From Polytrichum commune (Eukaryota; Streptophyta; Polytrichopsida; Polytrichales; Polytrichaceae): 64,000 nt of DNA. The DNA lies in assembly GCA_950295325.1 (NCBI GenBank), contig OX485807.1, positions 42,934,440-42,998,439 on the forward strand. Reading direction: 5' to 3'. Numbering within the stretch: the stretch's first letter is position 1; the number at the start of each line of letters is the position of its first letter. The translations under genes and the position numbers were made by a program. Below the pieces are notes generated by a model. It was not told the origin of the DNA and ran no database searches. It saw only the letters and a list, made by a program, of their open reading frames with translations. Of the stretch, positions 13,608 through 57,482 are shown piece after piece.

Positions 13608-16055
13608 TCAGAACCGAAGCTTGCTGAAGAACCACCGATTCTTGCCTTGCTTGAACCTCTCTTCCAGGACTCCCTTTGCTGCCTGTAGAACATAATCAAC
13701 AACCTCAAGTTCAATAGCCAGTCCAGAACTAAGAAGCCATCTGGGGTAGAAGCAAACTAATGGTTTCAATCACCCTACAACCCACTCCAGCTTCAGCAGA
13801 AATACATGAAGGCCTAAATTTACATGCATACTGGGCCTTGGGCTGGCTTTCAAAAAATAAAGTACCATATAGTGATCTGAGCCAATGAATAAGGTTGAGG
13901 CATCTACAACTGATAAAATAGGAGAGTTTGCATCTGTTGAGGAGGAGTGATAGTGGGGAACTATATTTGTTGTGCAGAGAAACATATTCTAATGAGATTG
14001 CAATTTTTTAATTTCTTTCATAAATATGGAAATTGCTACAAATTTTGAAGCGGTACAGTTTACTTCAACTAACACAGTCAATCTTTACGTCAACCCAAAA
14101 CTGCTCATCTAAATGCTAATTCTTGGCTACGACAGTTGTCAAAACTCTTATGAAGGTAATCAATCACAAGCTGCCACCACTTAAACCTTAACTCAGTTTA
14201 CCTAAAAATTATAGATCTCATCCATGTTGGCATTACATGTACCCTAGTGAGCAGTTGATGAACCTGGTCAACTGTGGATGCCTTGACCTTATTCTGATTG
14301 ACGAAAATAACCAACTCAAACATAAAGCTGATGGGCTTGCAATGTAAGCAGTGATTACCTTCCTGGCCTCAACACGACTGGCTGTAGACTCTAGCTTCTC
14401 TGGGGTCACAACAGTCTTGAGATCGACATCCAATGTGTACCTGAGAATAGTACAAAAATAACTTGGTAAGTATGAAGTGCCTACTACATTATTTCCTGGA
14501 CGTTGACAGTCTCCTAGTTGAGATTAAATTAAATACTTCAAGGACTTTAACCATTTCTATCAAGCTTCAAAACTCTAACCCCTCAATCATTGTTTCTCAG
14601 ATCACATATCCCAAGAGATAGTCTGCTGTGACATAACAAAATTGTATAATAAGTGAGGGCACTCTATCTTATTGCAGTACTTTGAAAAATTCGTACTTCG
14701 GGTAATGGGTCCAATTGCTCAACCCGTGCACATAATATCAAACCTAGGGAAATTGGTTATAGTGCCAAATTCAGGTATTCATGATGGAGTCACTCAAACA
14801 GAATGGCTTCAAAAGAGAATAGTAGGAAAGATACCTTGTGGGCATAATGTGGTTGTAGTTAACAACTTTTGTGAAGGCTTTCAGTCTTGAACGCTTCGCG
14901 ATGGTCTTCTTTGAAGCTTTCTTGATAACCTGCAGTAAATTAATCACCCTAATCAGAAAAAAAATCATCCTCTTGGTGATTACCAGATTGGACCTTGGGA
15001 CTCATGCTCTTAAATCTCAGACGCAGATGTCACTTCCTTCCACAGAGATGCAGAAAGAAAGCCCCACCAGAATAGATTACTTGTCAGGCATCTTTCGGAA
15101 TACAAATGCAAAGCACACAAACAGAATAAGACGCATATTGCATCAGCACATGTGGAACAATAGCAAGAGGCAACGTGCAGTCATTTCCACCAATGCCAAT
15201 AAAAACCGGCATTCAATTCGAAGTGAGCTCTCAGCAAGCGAGGTCATTGAGCTACACCATGACACTTCCAATTTTTCCTTCAACCCTAACCCTCCCAGCA
15301 AGCTAAACCATCACTTCATAACCATGCTAAACTGCACCATTTAGGAGCTTTTATGTGTTCTGCTCTCTAATCACTATCAGGGATTTCCAAAAGCGACCTG
15401 CCACTTGTGCAGATACTTGGACGAACACAGTGTAATCTGACGTTATCCCTAACCCTGAGCTTATCAGCACGCTAGACCACTCCTTCAGATAGATGCTACA
15501 CCGCACCACTCAGGAATCTTCTGCGTCCTGATTTTCTCGTCAAATTGCCAAAGCATCCTATCACACAACTAGCACCGGTTCTTGGCATTGCGCGCACACA
15601 ATACAAATCCGAAATTGAACCCTAAGTCTCTCAGCAGGCTAAACCATCACATCAGCCAAGATGCTACACCGAACCATCTAGAAAACCTCCACGTCGTAAA
15701 CTATCGAGAATTTCCGAGCACATCAACCTGCCACTGAGCTTGCGCAAATACTTGGAGAGACCGCACAGAATAAAATCCGACATTCACCCTAACCCTAAAA
15801 TCTCATCACTTCAAATGAGATGCTAAGCCAAACCACTTGGGGAGATTTTATCTGCGTCCCGCTCCCTAATCAGATTCAGAAAAACAATTTGAATCCCACC
15901 TTGCGGGGGTACTTGGCAATGCCGCACACGATGGCGTGGCCGTATGGGCGCTCCTTGGTGCCATCGTCGAAGTTCTTCACAATGACAGCCTTGCGACCGG
16001 CATATCGCCCCTGCAAGAGCACCACCACCTTGTTGGGCTTCAGAAACTTCACCAT
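13608..16055 (-). CDS. RPL27: 60S ribosomal protein eL27 (L27e), 4 coding exons, 135 aa
   Basis: Structural protein of the large cytosolic ribosomal subunit. Exons: 15900-16055 (52 codons), 14835-14929, 14359-14440 and 13608-13682. They total 408 nt, giving 135 aa plus stop, the canonical plant eL27 length. The N-terminus [20 protein letters not shown] holds the KOW-like segment; the protein ends in [11 protein letters not shown], the conserved eL27 C-terminus. The ATG chosen is the one at MVKF; an upstream in-frame ATG at 16163 would add a non-conserved extension. Splice donors and acceptors are standard GT/AG and phases fit. A telo-box lies about 107 nt upstream of the ATG. Intron 1 (14930-15899) is unusual: it carries tandem units that repeat the exon 1 end (separate entry). 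Identification is near certain. Confidence 0.97.
15284..15950. repeat. Exon-derived tandem repeat array in eL27 intron 1 (three units plus the parental exon edge)
   Basis: Three imperfect units of about 163-173 bp start at 15284, 15447 and 15620. A fourth starts at 15787 and runs into coding exon 1. Each plus-strand unit begins CCCTAACCCT or CCCTAAGTCT, then has a shared segment like AGCANGCTAAACCATCAC and ATGCTACACCGNACCA. Each ends in a block resembling TACTTGGCAATGCCGCACAC, which in unit 4 is the coding end of exon 1 (residues CGIAKYPRK on the minus strand). The first three units therefore hold decayed copies of the exon 1/intron 1 boundary. They are too diverged to code. Unit edges are approximate. 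Confidence 0.7.
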
Positions 16056-16161: not shown

Positions 16162-16170
16162 AAACCCTAA
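16162..16170 (+). promoter_or_regulatory. Telo-box upstream of eL27
   Basis: AAACCCTAA, followed by CCCTA, lies about 107 nt upstream of the eL27 ATG, within the likely 5'UTR or core promoter. Telo-boxes near the transcription start are common in plant ribosomal-protein and other translation genes. Position and sequence are seen; the regulatory role is inferred from plants generally. Confidence 0.6.
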
Positions 16171-19100
16171 CCCTACGGCGAGGCTCCTCGCTCCAGAAGC
16201 CGTTTAGGATCCCCACCGCTACCCGCTATCTTCCCCCTCCAACCCCACTTTAGTGGGGAAGGTGGATGAAGAGCACTACACTAAACACCTAATTTAGTGT
16301 GGTGTTAAAATTGGTGTGAAATAATAAATAAAAATTGGTCTTTGTGACTTGCCCATGTAGCATAAAGGGTCAAACGACACCCTCTTTAGTTGACATGCAA
16401 TGATTGCAAGACAATTAATGTAGGGGTCATGATGAATAGTGTGGACTACACTAGACTAAATCATATTCCGATATAATGCACCTCCTCCACACTAAAATTT
16501 TGAGGGAAAAAAAATAAAAAATTGATGTTGGTTGATTGTCGATTCGGTTGTGGCTCATTATTGGAATATATGGCTCAAATAAATAATCAACCAACTGATA
16601 TTGATATTTGTAACTTGGCTCTTGGAGCCTCCCACCATAGCACATTGTCTTTAGAAATGTAGATGCACAAAAGTATTTCTCTAGCCACAAAGAATAACTC
16701 TTATGTGTATTGTCTTCACATAACGACACATTCTCGCAGCTTGACAAAGACTTTTGATGGTGTTAAAGACATGGAAATAAATCAATCTAAAAAAACGCAC
16801 CTCTAGTTATGCACGTCTGACTATAGTCAATAAGTCTACAACCCGCAAAGGTCCCCCCAAAAAATCCTTCACCCTATGATTTTGGCTTCAAGGCTATGAA
16901 TGCCTTGAACCAAATTAAAGGGATAGAAAAAGAACCTCATGCAAGCGTGAGTGAACTTACAAAAATGAGTATGTATGAAAGAAAAAACGTTAGAGTGTCA
17001 AAATATGATAGAACCCATTTCCATATGTAATTCAAGAGATGTGGCTAAACAAGAGGGATAATAAAGACGGTCACAGTTTTCATATTATATAAATTTCCTC
17101 TGATGTGGAAGTCAACGATGGTTTTGTTATGAACCACTATATTGCATTATAATTTGATCTTGAGGAAATGGTTATCCCATAAGACGAGGGATTAAACAAA
17201 ATAACTAAACGATTGGACGAAATGAAAATATTATTTCGGGAATGATATTAGTGATCCTATAGCAATAATGTGCACACATTGAGGAAAACAATGGTCTGAA
17301 CACGTAACAATCCATTTCAAACATGTACAAGATGATGGCGTTCAACTCCTCCAAGGATTGCACCCATTCATAATCTGGCTTTAGGATTTAAAAAATACAT
17401 AGAGGTTAAATTCTATAAAATCTTATGATAATATTGCCTCCGGTGAGTTATTATACATCAAAATTACAACTAATATTATTAGGGAGAAGTCTTGGTCTAA
17501 AGTGTACGAGGAAATAGTGGATGAGGATGTCAAACGTGGTCATGATTTTAAAATCACCTATGTTAAAAAAAAACAAGATACTCACAATTATGCATGGGTT
17601 GTTGCAATTAAACTTGAACAATCTGCCAACATTCGTAACACAAAATCACATTTGAAAATGAATATACAAAAGTGTTGGTATCAAGTGGCAAATCCACAGG
17701 TGATGACCTTGTAAAAAAGAAACGCCTTCATCCTCATTGCAAAGAATCTAAACCAGTTCAAACCATTATAGGCGCTCAAAGGAGAAATTTAGACATACAT
17801 GGGTGATAGAAATGTCTAAACACTTATTTCAAATACGATGTGGATGGAAACCTCATTGGTGTATTTAATATTTAATGCTTGAGTGCCACCAGTTACAAGA
17901 ATTTGTAAAAGAAATCATAAGATATGTAAATGTGTAGAGTTTATCCCTCATTTGAAAATATTGGATGGTATATCCAAGCCTTCGAGTGAAGAGTTCACAA
18001 GATTATAATTTGATGATGTTAGTATAGTTTTGCCAAACAAGATAGAAGCCTTGGAAAACGTTTCATTCAAAGAATTAGAAAGAAAAGACATAAATAAATT
18101 TGTAGAAGAAGCCGTTGCCAAAGGGGCTGAAATTGTCCATCATACAATGCCAATCATGGAAACTGGTCTCACAAATCAAGCCAATTTTATGCCATGTATA
18201 CAACAGAGAAACCAACCAAGATACTTATGAATCCTTAAGAACATAGAATTTAAATTGAGTCATAATTTTGAATTATACTTAAGAATCCACCTTGACATCC
18301 GTGCTACAAATAATTAAAATATATTTCAAAACCCAAAAAAATATATTTTCTTAAATGCCACAATTCTACTAGAAACACTTACCAACACAATCATTACAAA
18401 ATAATGAAATACTAAGACAACAAACAATCTATACCAACAAACTATATATGACAAAAGACACAACTTAGCAACTAGCCAATCAAACTCACCAATTACACAA
18501 TTGGCTTGAAAACGATGATATATACAAATCCTTATCAAATGACTTTTAGAAAAAACCCATTACAACATGCAAACATAAAACATGCCCAATTAAATTCCAA
18601 ACCGAACAATATATGGGTCACGCCTGCAAACAAATGTTCTTTGGCAAAGAAACCTACCCATCACACACATGCCCTTTATGGAACTCAACGGACACAAATA
18701 CATGGCTACATGTAATGCAAATAACAACACATTCATATGTTAATAACCAAAAGATGCAACAAAGCGGTATGGATACTATGTAAGCTTCTTATATCAAACA
18801 AAATATAAAAAATCTACGCACTCATGAATGCAAGAACTCACAATGGATAATCTCAAGAGAACACAATACCAACATGGCTACTTCCATGCATCTATGGCTC
18901 CCAAAGATGTCACTGTAATGCCAGCTTCAAACCCAATTTACTTTGCATAATAGGCCACCCATACAACCACCCCCACCATAAAACCCTACACTAGAATTCA
19001 CCACAGTTTATCGAGTTTACATATTACAATGGTAGATTCTCCCTAGTAGCCCTCAAGAGGAAAACCACAAAATACCAATTGTTCATCAACAACATCGCAA

Positions 19101-40300: not shown

Positions 40301-42877
40301 GTGTCACTATAGTGTCCATCCTCGAAAGGGGAGAGTAGTATTGTCCCAATGTCCCCTTGTCCGGTGGGCATCGGGTCATTGGCATTACGAACGGACACTT
40401 TATTCACGCCGGCCCCTTGCAAAAAAGGGACCGGAGTTTCTATCTATCTATCTGTAATTCCAGTTAGGTCTGCAGGAGATGTTCCATGGTCAAACTAATG
40501 TCTGTCTTAAATGCCTAAGGTTTGAGATATCCATCACCTGACAAAGTGGAAGTTGATCTGTAATTAAAAATGATAAGTTGGATGATGGGGGATAGGAATG
40601 TATATAACCAATTATTTACCTTGATTCTGTCATGGTGGAATGCAGGACTAACAATTCGGCGGTGGAGAGACCATTCTTCCCCAACTGTGCTCACAAGCCC
40701 CTTGCCCAACAATGCTGTCAAGCCTCGCACCTGCTCATCGCTTTTTGAGTTGAACCCATTCTTGTTCAACAGAACTTCCTTGATAAGCTGGGGGTCTGAA
40801 AGCGTCAGCAGTGGGGTACGCCCGAACCACCACAGGTGCTGCTTCCCTGCAGATTCATGTGAATGTCTAGAAATTAGTGATTAAACCCAATGTTGGACTG
40901 GTATACAGGCGAATGCATGGTATCAAGAATCAACATCAATAATGGAATCAAAGAACCTACCCAACTGGATCAAAATTGTAATATCAATTAAAAATTGATG
41001 TTGGTGGGTATCTCAAGATGAGAGAATCTTTGTTTCCACAGCTTATTATTGGGTTCAATACCATCTAAACCATAAGGATATTAGAGCGACTTTTACCAAG
41101 TATGTATGAAAGTTCTTGCATGGTATATGATATTGAAGAAAAATATAATCTTCAAAAACCCATACCCTACTAGTATCAAAAACCTTAAAATCCTCACTAT
41201 AGATACTCGAATGGTATTAAAAAAAGAAGACAATATCAGTTTAACACTGGCTTGAACCACATGATTAAGTTCTCAAACAGCTACTTGGATATCAAGCGAC
41301 CGGTTATGGTTGTACTTCACAACACATAGCATTCTCCACATGTCAGTTAAAGATCTAAACCCAAGTTGAATCATACGCACAAGGATTGTTTTCTGGGATC
41401 ACGGGGGGAGCTGGAAAATATAATTACAAAACTTCAAAGAAATCTCAGATTCTTCTTCTTACTTACTATCTGTTTCATAGTTGAAAGATAATCGAAGACT
41501 TCAACCCCAGTTGAAGCCGACAAGGATTCTTCTCAGGGATCACAGTGGGAGATGAAAGGTCGAATTACACAACTCACAAAAACGCTCGAATTCTTCCTAC
41601 TATATATTTCATGATGGAGAGGTAATTGAAGACCTAAAACCCCAGTTTATGCCTACAAGGGTTCTTCTCTGTGATCACAGTGGGAGGAAGATCGAGCATA
41701 TAAATCACAAAAACGCACAAATTCTTCTCACTATCTATTTCACAGTGGAAAGGTTGAAGACGTTGCAGCCTACACGGATGCTTCTCTGGACAGCCGAAGC
41801 TGGAAGATCAAATCACAATTTTGTTTTAAATGATCAAATTCTCCTTACTATCAATTTCATAGTGGAAAGGTAATTGAAGAGTACTAAAACCCAAGTTGAA
41901 GCCTTCTACAATTCTTCTCTGGGATCACGGTGGGAGGAAGGTCGAATTACAAAATTTCTTAATTTCTTCTTACTATCTAAGTACTTCATAGTAGAAAGGT
42001 TGAAGGCCTAAACCCAAATTGAAGCTTACAAGGATCCCAAGTGGAAGCCCACAAGGATTCCTCTCCGGGATCACAGTGGGAGGAAGTTCGCATTACACAA
42101 ATCCTCAAATTCTTCTTCTTGCTGTCGATTTTTATAACGGAAAGGTAATTGAAGACCTAAACCCAAGTTCATTCAAAGCCCACAAGAATGGATTGTTCTC
42201 TGGCAAGATGACAGTGGGAGGAAGATCGAATCACAAAAATGCTCAATTTCTTCGTACTATCTAAGTACTTCATAAGGGAAAGGTTGAAAGCCTAAACCCG
42301 AGTTTAAGCCTACAAGAATTCCTCTCTGGGATCACAGAGGGAGGTGGAAGATTGAATTAAAAAAATCACAAAATTGCTCAAATTCAGATTATACTTCCAT
42401 AATAAAGGATTTAATGTAATCAAAGACCTAAACCCAACTTCATTCGAAGTCTACAAGTCTAATGGATTGTTCTCTGGGCTAATGACAGAGGGAGCAAGAT
42501 CCAGAGTTATCTATCTAGCTAGCTTGCAGCCACTTACCATACTGCTTAGTCCAGGAGACATGGAAGGGCAGAATTCGCGGAACAAGGTCGTAGTCACCAA
42601 CATCCATATCCTTCTGCTGCACCTCTAGGACCATCTTCCTCCGCTCAGCCATGTTGCCCAGCAACCACTGGGGCGGAGGCCCAGTCACTCCCTGCCTCTC
42701 CATCACCTGCCTCACCCTTCGAGGGACCAACACAAATTGCTGCACCATCGGCAAGGTCAAGTGCACAAAGATTAAGCCAAGCACCGTGGGAATGATGGCA
42801 GCAGCCCACCACCATAGTTGCTGATGCTGCTGCTGCTGATCATCATGAGCAGCCTGCAGAAACTGCAACAACTCCAT
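37302..42877 (-). CDS. Cytochrome P450, CYP72 clan (CYP734/CYP735-like), P450-A, 5 exons, 545 aa
   Basis: Membrane-bound ER haem monooxygenase. CYP72-clan members hydroxylate hormones (brassinosteroids, cytokinins) and terpenoids; the substrate cannot be read from sequence. Exons: 42538-42877, 40620-40846, 39381-39628, 38281-38668, 37302-37736. They total 1638 nt, in frame. An N-terminal hydrophobic anchor (WWWAAAIIPTVLGLIFV) is followed by RQGVTGPPPQWLLGN. The I-helix AGQETT is at 352-357, the K-helix ESLR at 408-411, PERF at 463-466, and the haem ligand loop FSFGPRTCVG at 483-492 with Cys490. All key P450 residues are intact. An in-frame ATG at 42994 would add 39 aa; the 42877 start gives a usual N-terminus. 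Intron 1 holds a degenerate tandem array and intron 2 a SINE. It shares exon number, phases and the 227-nt exon 2 with P450-B, so they are tandem duplicates. Confidence 0.9.
40078..40452 (+). mobile_element. tRNA-derived SINE in P450-A intron 2
   Basis: The head has a pol III A-box-like TTGGCTTGGTGGTTAGGG and a B-box-like GTGGGTTCTATTCCC about 35 bp later, as in tRNA-derived SINEs. The body is about 375 bp and ends in a (TCTA)n simple-repeat tail. A 10-bp target-site duplication TGTAATTCCA flanks it (40068-40077 and 40453-40462). It lies antisense to the P450 transcript. Its 60-codon open frame is incidental. Confidence 0.8.
41340..42500. repeat. Degenerate tandem array (about 8-9 units of 117-148 bp) in P450-A intron 1
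   Basis: Units recur with the landmark GGGATCACAGTGGGAGGAAG or a near variant at about 41396, 41537, 41671, 41788, 41921, 42068, 42202, 42327 and 42476. Each unit then has AAATTCTTC(TT)ACTATCT, TTCATAGTGGAAAGGT, GAAGACCTAAACCCAAGTT and ACAAGGATTCTTCTCT. Units vary in length and have small indels. The last ends about 40 bp inside the intron from exon 1. No coding frame persists across units. Confidence 0.8.
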
Positions 42878-55300: not shown

Positions 55301-57482
55301 GATGCTAGAAAGCCCAAATCTCGTGCAGGCAACCACTGAGGTGTCAAAAATGTTTATTTTCCGGTTTAAGAAATCCACCACAGACACACAGTCGTGTGAG
55401 ATGATTACATAATGAGAATGTTATGTGTACAGGTGCATGAGGTTTTGTACCTTAATTCTGTCATGGTGGAAGGCAGGGCTCACGATTCGTCGGTGAAAAG
55501 ACCATTCGTCCCCAACAGTGCTCACTAGCCCCTTGCCCATCAATGTTGTTAAACCTTTCAACTGAAAATCGTTCTTTGTGGCAAATCCATTCTTGTTCAA
55601 AAGAATTTCCTTCACGAGCTTGGGGTCTGTGATTGTTAGCATCGGTTCATCGTCCATCCACCATAAGTGGCACTTCCCTGGAGATTAATTGTAAGAAAAA
55701 TAACACTCAAGAATCAGTGACAGGCCATGTAATTTCGGTAGCTCGATGTGGACATCAATCCAATAGTGAATAAGATTGTCTCCGATGTGATTTAGTTCAA
55801 TTTGAGCGCAACTATGTGTTTCAGCCATCATGTAGGAAGACAAAAGACAGAGACTCGCCTGCTTGAGGCATCGTGTAAGTTAATGAATTATTGGCACTTT
55901 TGGGAAAATCTGCATCCATCTACAGGGTGCTTAATAACGTTCCTCAATTGGTTTTCTTGTCGAATTCTTTTAAGTTAGAACAAGCTAGCCAGTCACAAGA
56001 TAGTTTTAATCAATTCTAGTTGACCACATGCGTACAATTTATTGGTCGTTTGCAAGACATTGATTGCTATGAGAATAGCTCAGAATGATTTCGGTGACAA
56101 TAGATGGGTGGTATGAAACTGCAGAACTGGGACTGCACAGTCGTTGGACTTTATTTTACTGTAGTTGCTTACCTAGTTTGGCATAAATATTTAGTGCCAA
56201 GTGGAAGAAATTTGCCACATGTAATTATATCATTTGGAGGGAGTGTATAAATTCCCACATGACACTACGTTTTGGCACTCAATGTGTTGATCCAGATAGC
56301 CATCTACGGTAATTGCTCTAGATATCTTTGCCTAATCCTGACTGGATTCATGACTGATGAGCTTATAACTGGGCTGCACGTGTTTCATTAGTAAAAGTTA
56401 AATAAATAAACATAACATAACAAAGGTTGTACGGCTGGACAATAACATGTCAGAAACTCCCCACAAACCTCACGTACTCTAAAATGCACGCCTTTCTTCT
56501 TCTCCATTCATGTGACTCACAAATGTGGAGAGTTTCACGGAATCGATAACTACACCCAATGGAAGTATTGAGGAATTCAATAATAATTTTCTGCATGAAT
56601 CCGAGATCAAAGTTCAATTGAGGTTGCACCTTATTTACTGACCATACTTCTATCTCATTGCAAGTAAAAACATGACAATAAAATGACAGCAACAAGTCCC
56701 CAGAAACTTGACACATTGTTTAAACATTCTCAACTCCTTTCTCTTTCATACGACTCATAAATGTGGATCTGAATTCATGGAAACTGTGATTACCTAGTAC
56801 CCTATTGCAGCGTACCAGACTCCATTAACAATATCTGTGATTGAGGTGTAGCTTAGTACAGACCACACTGCTTTGTCAATGCATCATGGACAGGCAACAC
56901 ACGCGGGAGAATGTTTTAGTCCAACACATCAGGCATGTCGTTCGATTCAATTGACTCTCTTATATATTGATCATCTCCTTCTGTTCAGCTCAATTCTCAA
57001 CTCCTTTCTCTTTCATATGACTCATAAATGTGGATCTGAATTCATGGAATCTGTGATTACCTAGTACCTATTGCAGCGTACGTACCAGACTCCATTAACA
57101 ATATCTGTGATTGAGGTGTAGCTTAGTACTGACCATACTGCTTTGTCAATGCATCATGGACAGGCAACACACGCGGGAGAATGTCGTAGTCCCGCACATC
57201 GGGCATGTCCTTCGATTCAATTGACTCTCTTCTTTTGATCATCTCCTTCTCTTCAGCTGTAGAGTTCCCCATGAACAACCGAATTCGAGGTCCCATCACT
57301 CCCTGCTTCTCCAACATCCCCGTGATCCGTAATGGGGTAAGCACTTTCCGCTGCAGGAGTGAGAGAGCAAAGTGCACGAGCACCAGGGCAATCAACGTGC
57401 CTGCGGGCAAGGCCATCCATGACCACCCTGTAAGCTGCTCATAGTCATGAGCATTTGAAAAGCTCGACATGATGAACTCCAT
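52344..57482 (-). CDS. Cytochrome P450, CYP72 clan (CYP734/CYP735-like), P450-B, 5 exons, 548 aa
   Basis: Haem monooxygenase of the ER membrane, tandem paralogue of P450-A. Exons: 57134-57482, 55451-55677, 54693-54928, 53445-53838, 52344-52784. They total 1647 nt, in frame. An N-terminal anchor (WSWMALPAGTLIALVLVHFAL) is followed by EKQGVMGPRIRLFMGN. The I-helix AGHETT is at 353-358, ESLR at 409-412, PERF at 464-467, and the haem loop FSFGPRNCVG at 486-495 with Cys493. All catalytic landmarks are present, so it looks functional. Exon 3 donor: ACAAG|GTCCCT keeps the frame and yields a linker about five residues shorter than in P450-A; this joint is the weakest. The start ATG at 57482 could be replaced by one at 57470. 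Intron 1 carries a duplicated exon 1 fragment; introns 3 and 4 carry MITE-like inverted repeats. Substrate unknown; annotation pipelines often call such proteins cytokinin or brassinosteroid hydroxylase-like. Confidence 0.9.
52867..53052. mobile_element. Inverted-repeat element a in P450-B intron 4
   Basis: The left end GCTCATAACATTGTTAA mirrors the right end TTAACAATGTTATGCTC over about 15 bp, 186 bp overall. The CATAACATT terminus is shared with the two adjacent elements, suggesting one superfamily. Confidence 0.5.
53068..53221. mobile_element. MITE family 4, copy 1, in P450-B intron 4
   Basis: Left CATAACATTACTCAACAACA with GGACCCTC; right GAGGGCCCACAGAACGAGAG with GTAATGTTATG. These are inverted ends with imperfect match, 154 bp. 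About three quarters identical by eye to 54500-54649. Confidence 0.6.
54500..54649. mobile_element. MITE family 4, copy 2, in P450-B intron 3
   Basis: Left CATAACATTACTCAAGGACA with GGGCCCTC; right GAGGGTCCACATAACGAGAG with GTTGTTATG. The interior shares GTGGGAGCTTAATGTGAATT-like and GAGTTTCCTTACGCA-like segments with copy 1. No ORF. Confidence 0.6.
56726..57262 (-). repeat. Tandem duplication covering the end of P450-B exon 1, with a pseudo-exon
   Basis: A segment of about 267-270 bp occurs twice head to tail: 56726-56992 and 56993-57262. The second copy includes the 3' part of coding exon 1 (57134-57262). The first copy therefore holds a pseudo-exon at about 56864-56992, inside intron 1. 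It still reads as NDMPDVLD, stop, NILPRVLPVHDALTKQ relative to the real exon; the in-frame TAA is at 56916-56918. Its GT donor survives (GTCTGTAC). The copies are about 93-95% alike by eye, so the duplication is fairly recent. Confidence 0.8.

Follow-up and report, generated by a model that had tools for sequence, protein, structure and literature searches.

The 64-kb stretch of Polytrichum commune DNA analysed here (the window) carries on its reverse strand a gene for the ribosomal protein eL27. Exon 1 (15900..16055) spans 52 codons, translated as MVKF...YPRK, and is followed on the same strand by exon 2 (14835..14929), exon 3 (14359..14440) and exon 4 (13608..13682, stop codon included). The joined protein of 135 aa has as its top matches the eL27 of solved ribosomes, including plant ones, and PF01777 and KOW are matched by a version of it that is 3 residues short at the last junction. 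Intron 1 (14930..15899, reverse strand) measures 970 nt, with donor AAG/GTGGGA and acceptor CTGCAG, as delineated from the sequence and the reading frame. Two paralogues with an intact exon 1 are found on C2 and C4. The exon 1 protein is identical to that of the C2 paralogue and 98% identical to that of the C4 paralogue, and the position of intron 1 is common to the three genes. The 408-Mb genome is nearly all contained in seven large contigs of 42-78 Mb, which suggests n = 7.

Intron 1 harbours a tandem array of a segment of about 168 nt, read on the reverse strand. Unit U0 (15773..15932, 160 nt) straddles the junction, with 33 nt from the end of exon 1 and ~127 nt from the start of intron 1; it bears the functional donor and would be the ancestral copy. 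It is followed by three decayed intronic copies that together occupy 15772-15265: U1 (15603..15772, 170 nt), in which the aligned donor GT is lost or displaced, U2 (15433..15602, 170 nt), in which the exon edge is best kept (15602-15577), and U3 (15265..15432, 168 nt), which contains CACAAGTGGCAGGT. The copies lie head-to-tail at the source locus, all in the same orientation, and the unit comprises exonic and intronic sequence of one gene. A candidate extra half-unit, corresponding to the second half of the unit, lies at 15180..15264 on the same strand (P = 0.024 versus U1; 1.7 bits, E 0.069), and is only suggestive of an array reaching past 15265.

A reading of this DNA from the sequence alone had already described intron 1 as an array of three decayed copies of the exon 1/intron 1 junction. 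The three copies were confirmed and their derivation from the junction is supported; the repeat length, however, is 160-170 and not the proposed 165-173 bp, and the unit starts at 15932, inside exon 1. Tandem Repeats Finder is blind to the ~168-nt array because the copies are too diverged, and the period is seen in pieces by standard repeat search. All six pairs among U0-U3 align with z = 8.6-12.2 over dinucleotide-Markov shuffles, none of the 500 shuffles reaching the score. Identity among units is roughly 55-65% in global alignments (about 56-65% with MAFFT) and 69-79% in gapped local alignments when only aligned letters are counted; the latter give higher values by gapping out poorly matching stretches. 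When the 45 nt at the end of exon 1 were compared with the intron, the best match was 15602-15577 with a score of 30, the maximum of 1000 simulations being 24, so that the similarity to exon 1 expected off the diagonal of a self-comparison is significant. A profile built from U1-U3 only, a non-circular test since U0 is left out of the model, recovers 15932-15777, that is the real exon edge and intron start, with E = 4.5e-12. As this match starts 33 nt inside exon 1, the unit boundary was placed there. No further match to the profile was found in the window or at the two paralogue loci.

The coding sequence of the exon edge can be followed into the copies. The real edge encodes CGIAKYPRK, its counterparts read CGLSKYLRK in U1 and CSSKYLHK in U3, and U2 holds a frame-disrupted remnant. 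The notion that the copies still code was rejected: their frames differ, they are decayed, and an in-frame stop lies before them.

Tandem organisation is also what would be found if a satellite or a transposon had landed in the intron and resembled exon 1 by chance. The units are not dispersed genome-wide: DNA searches of the 408 Mb, for which the queries were the whole array and the U1-U3 consensus, returned the eL27 locus only, on a criterion that very diverged copies, or a very diverged family, could escape. The C2 and C4 paralogues are without the array in intron 1, and the unduplicated state is thus present among the paralogues. Because the array is detectable at one locus only and does not occur in the paralogues, it does not qualify as a satellite or a transposon; the exon-edge homology, moreover, runs in phase with the repeat period. 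On these grounds such an origin was rejected, and its probability is considered negligible.

In the paralogues, the exon edges alone match the unit profile, and only if the profile includes U0. Their intron 1 displays no significant similarity to the array-bearing intron 1, and this intron is not alignable among paralogues. Differences at four-fold sites among the paralogues amount to 8/25, 14/24 and 11/24. The distances are 0.42-1.13 for the paralogues and 0.26-0.66 for the units, paralogue divergence being of the same order or larger. These values are consistent with a duplication later than the paralogue split, of which they are no proof.

The sequence-only reading considered that the remnants of the splice donor could act as decoys and regulate the output of the gene. 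In such a scheme, U1-U3 would provide regulatory donors, and mRNA with an early stop would be degraded, tuning eL27 output. Autoregulation through unproductive splicing is known for ribosomal-protein genes of other organisms. GT sites are indeed present in the copies, namely CAG/GTCGCT (15397), CAG/GTTGAT (15727) and AGG/GTGAAT (15787). Read-through of the true donor meets an in-frame stop after 7 codons, and this stop, 21 nt into the intron, would be kept by any such use, so that mRNA from array donors would be expected to be degraded. The donor-like AAGTGGCAG singled out earlier is real and lies in U3 at about 15404-15397, but its GT is preceded by CAA and not by AAG. Donor strength was evaluated as a simple duplex energy with U1 snRNA, not with a trained splice model. 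On this scale the true donor (-8.8 kcal/mol) ranks first among 59 GT sites of the array, with -6.3 for the runner-up, and is therefore 2.5 kcal/mol stronger than any array site; strong decoy donors were rejected on this basis. At the position aligned to the true donor, every copy has lost its GT or has it displaced. The array is not conserved in the paralogues. Their true donors, in genes devoid of it, are weaker and come 20th among 88 and 9th among 62 GT sites. Competition of the copies with the true splice site, conceivable in principle, is not supported by the sequence, where nothing points that way, and a role of U1-U3 as decoy or regulatory donors appears very unlikely.

Tandem units of ~168 nt inside a ribosomal-protein intron could also correspond to a cluster of snoRNAs or other structured RNAs, as snoRNA clusters are found in ribosomal-protein introns of plants (PMC3022908). 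The Rfam, C/D-box and folding results all speak against it. Rfam returned no match at the gathering score, the weak ones being far below the cutoff, and no C/D-box pair with a stem was detected in a scan of intron 1; H/ACA anatomy was covered through Rfam and folding only. The folding of intron 1 shows no meaningful excess over shuffles (z -1.0), and the consensus structure of the unit has an unfavourable covariation term, with little covariation. An intronic snoRNA or structured RNA cluster was rejected from the combination of Rfam, C/D-box scan, folding and covariation, and is regarded as extremely improbable.

The units contain a short motif that had been read as a telomere-like start common to all of them. 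This is true of three of the four units: CCCTAACCCT is present in U3 (15284..15293, forward strand), U2 (15447-15456) and U0 (15787-15796), whereas the counterpart in U1, starting at 15618, is AACCCTAA (15618-15625). A telo-box, AACCCTAACCCT, is found upstream of exon 1 (16163..16174, forward strand), and all three eL27 paralogues have a telo-box upstream of exon 1 at about the same place. As the motif precedes exon 1 in the paralogues also, a telomere-derived repeat was rejected and telo-box is the better name. The telo-box is a cis-element already known from plants, where it is enriched in 5'UTRs, ribosomal-protein promoters and the first two introns (PMC3022908). Here a motif of the same class as the AAACCCTA of plant ribosomal-protein genes is present both upstream of exon 1 and early in the gene, in intron 1; the difference from an ordinary telo-box is that the intronic motifs were multiplied along with the larger unit in which they lie.

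The repetition of AGGGTTAGGG in a promoter-proximal intron might raise eL27 transcription, the array being then an enhancer. All four occurrences of CCCTAACCCT in the window lie within the eL27 gene, 0.15 being expected, and AGGGTTAGGGTT is about 6.6 times commoner in the genome than its reversed control. The enrichment of telo-boxes in plant 5' regions, first two introns and ribosomal-protein promoters would agree with such a function, as would telo-box tandem arrays elsewhere in the genome. One of these, degenerate, is located in an intron of a homologue of WDR75 (ribosome biogenesis; C3:14472041-14475219), and two are immediately upstream of apparent start codons, with units of about 71-83 bp (C3:36033281-36036455) and 70 bp (C5:20594309-20597458). 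However, extra motifs arrive automatically with the duplicated segment: as the telo-box lies inside it, its repetition requires no selection. Furthermore, permuting the columns yields invariant runs as long as those observed (P = 0.22). The repeated telo-box may have weak added enhancer activity, and an array existing as an enhancer seems rather unlikely.

Other tandem arrays were observed in the window and in the genome. In the window, a 270-bp segment is duplicated at 56726-57258 (2 copies, 92%) and a 135-bp segment at 41456-41752 (2.2 copies, 77%). At C1:31803800-31807800, a 130-bp telo-box minisatellite (5.7 copies, 92%) has a close relative at C3:16223957-16224228; it is unrelated to the eL27 array, its kinship with which was rejected, and no gene was recognised at this C1 locus. 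Intron 1 of the C2 eL27 paralogue (C2:25690500-25695000) has its own tandem duplication of ~285 nt, which does not include the exon edge. All three eL19 genes (C2:14534800-14539800, C3:20197000-20202000 and C6:2051600-2056600) have unrelated arrays in the intron that follows the first coding exon, with respective periods of about 196, 244 and 187. The separate duplications in the C2 eL27 intron and in the three eL19 introns imply that the process is common in this genome.

The frequency of such arrays was compared in 3-kb neighbourhoods of family matches. Arrays near exons were found in 9 of 16 ribosomal-protein-type genes, the three eL19 genes with their first-intron arrays among them, and in 6 of 21 Ras-family genes (one-sided P = 0.09), the latter resulting from the merging by eye of 30 loci, of which 6 had an array. 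The sample is too small, and since the genes of both sets were selected without regard to first introns, which tend to be longer, the comparison is a lead and not a result. Copying of the exon edge was assessed at 46 ends of domain matches, which are not always exon ends, by comparison with the following DNA; eL27 alone stands clearly above shuffles (z 5.8), the next value of 3.5 being within its own shuffles. It has been considered that ribosomal-protein and ribosome-biogenesis genes might have had their leaders and 5'-proximal introns enlarged, repeatedly and independently, by local tandem duplication of segments bearing a telo-box, selected for the repeated motif. The eL27 array, with a unit starting in the exon by chance, would be one instance; this broader scenario is given a low probability.

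Tandem duplication across an exon-intron junction is already known in kind (PMC4974935). The potato RdRp gene PGSC0003DMG402000361 underwent a tandem duplication across an exon-intron boundary, and one of its introns also contains a duplication of 83 bp (Ma, Lan and Niu 2016, PMC4974935). As in eL27, a segment of a plant gene crossing the junction was tandemly duplicated, with splice signals inherited from the parent structure. In potato, a new intron and a new exon segment arose, whereas neither is evident in eL27, where the duplicated piece combines an exon end and an intron start and its several copies all lie within an existing intron. Intron gain through tandem duplication of sequence containing AGGT (Rogers 1989; Hellsten et al. 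2011) and several tandem copies in one intron of fission yeast SPOG_01682/SOCG_00815 are cited in PMC4974935. As described there, AGGT-mediated gain resembles the present case in being a tandem duplication around an AG/GT site, but it creates a new intron from exonic sequence. Intron 1 of eL27 pre-exists, at the same position in three paralogues, and its presence in the C2 and C4 genes means that no new intron was gained.

The eL27 array is real intron growth, mostly of an ordinary kind. It very probably originated in local tandem duplication across the exon 1/intron 1 junction, followed by mostly neutral decay. A segment of ~168 bp, starting 33 nt before the end of exon 1 and ending ~127 nt past the donor, would have been duplicated in tandem and stepwise in one eL27 copy only, with the original exon edge and donor retained in the 5'-most copy. 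As this 5'-most donor splices out all extra copies with the intron, the duplication would have been harmless to the protein. Intron 1 would have become longer by about 500 nt, and the intronic copies would then have decayed to the point of no longer making coding sense or offering a good donor context. The array, its phase, its homology to the exon edge, its uniqueness and its absence from the paralogues are observed; from them we infer the mechanism of duplication (replication slippage, unequal exchange or break repair), the order of the steps and the near-neutrality of the process.

Counting against this reading, the unit is unevenly conserved along its length (P = 0.005 for the variance in the number of invariant columns per 20). 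The most diverged part is just past the donor, and the exon edge and the half bearing the telo-box are better preserved. This could reflect constraint, or merely poor alignment around gaps, and alignment gaps can explain the trough. The persistence of four telo-box motifs in the decayed array is mildly above what neutral decay needs.

The eL27 gene thus offers a natural example of an intron that lengthens by tandem duplication of the junction at its donor. No harm results, since splicing from the first donor takes out every later copy. If the pattern seen in 9 of 16 versus 6 of 21 genes were true genome-wide, it would suggest that high expression, telo-boxes and local tandem duplication are connected.
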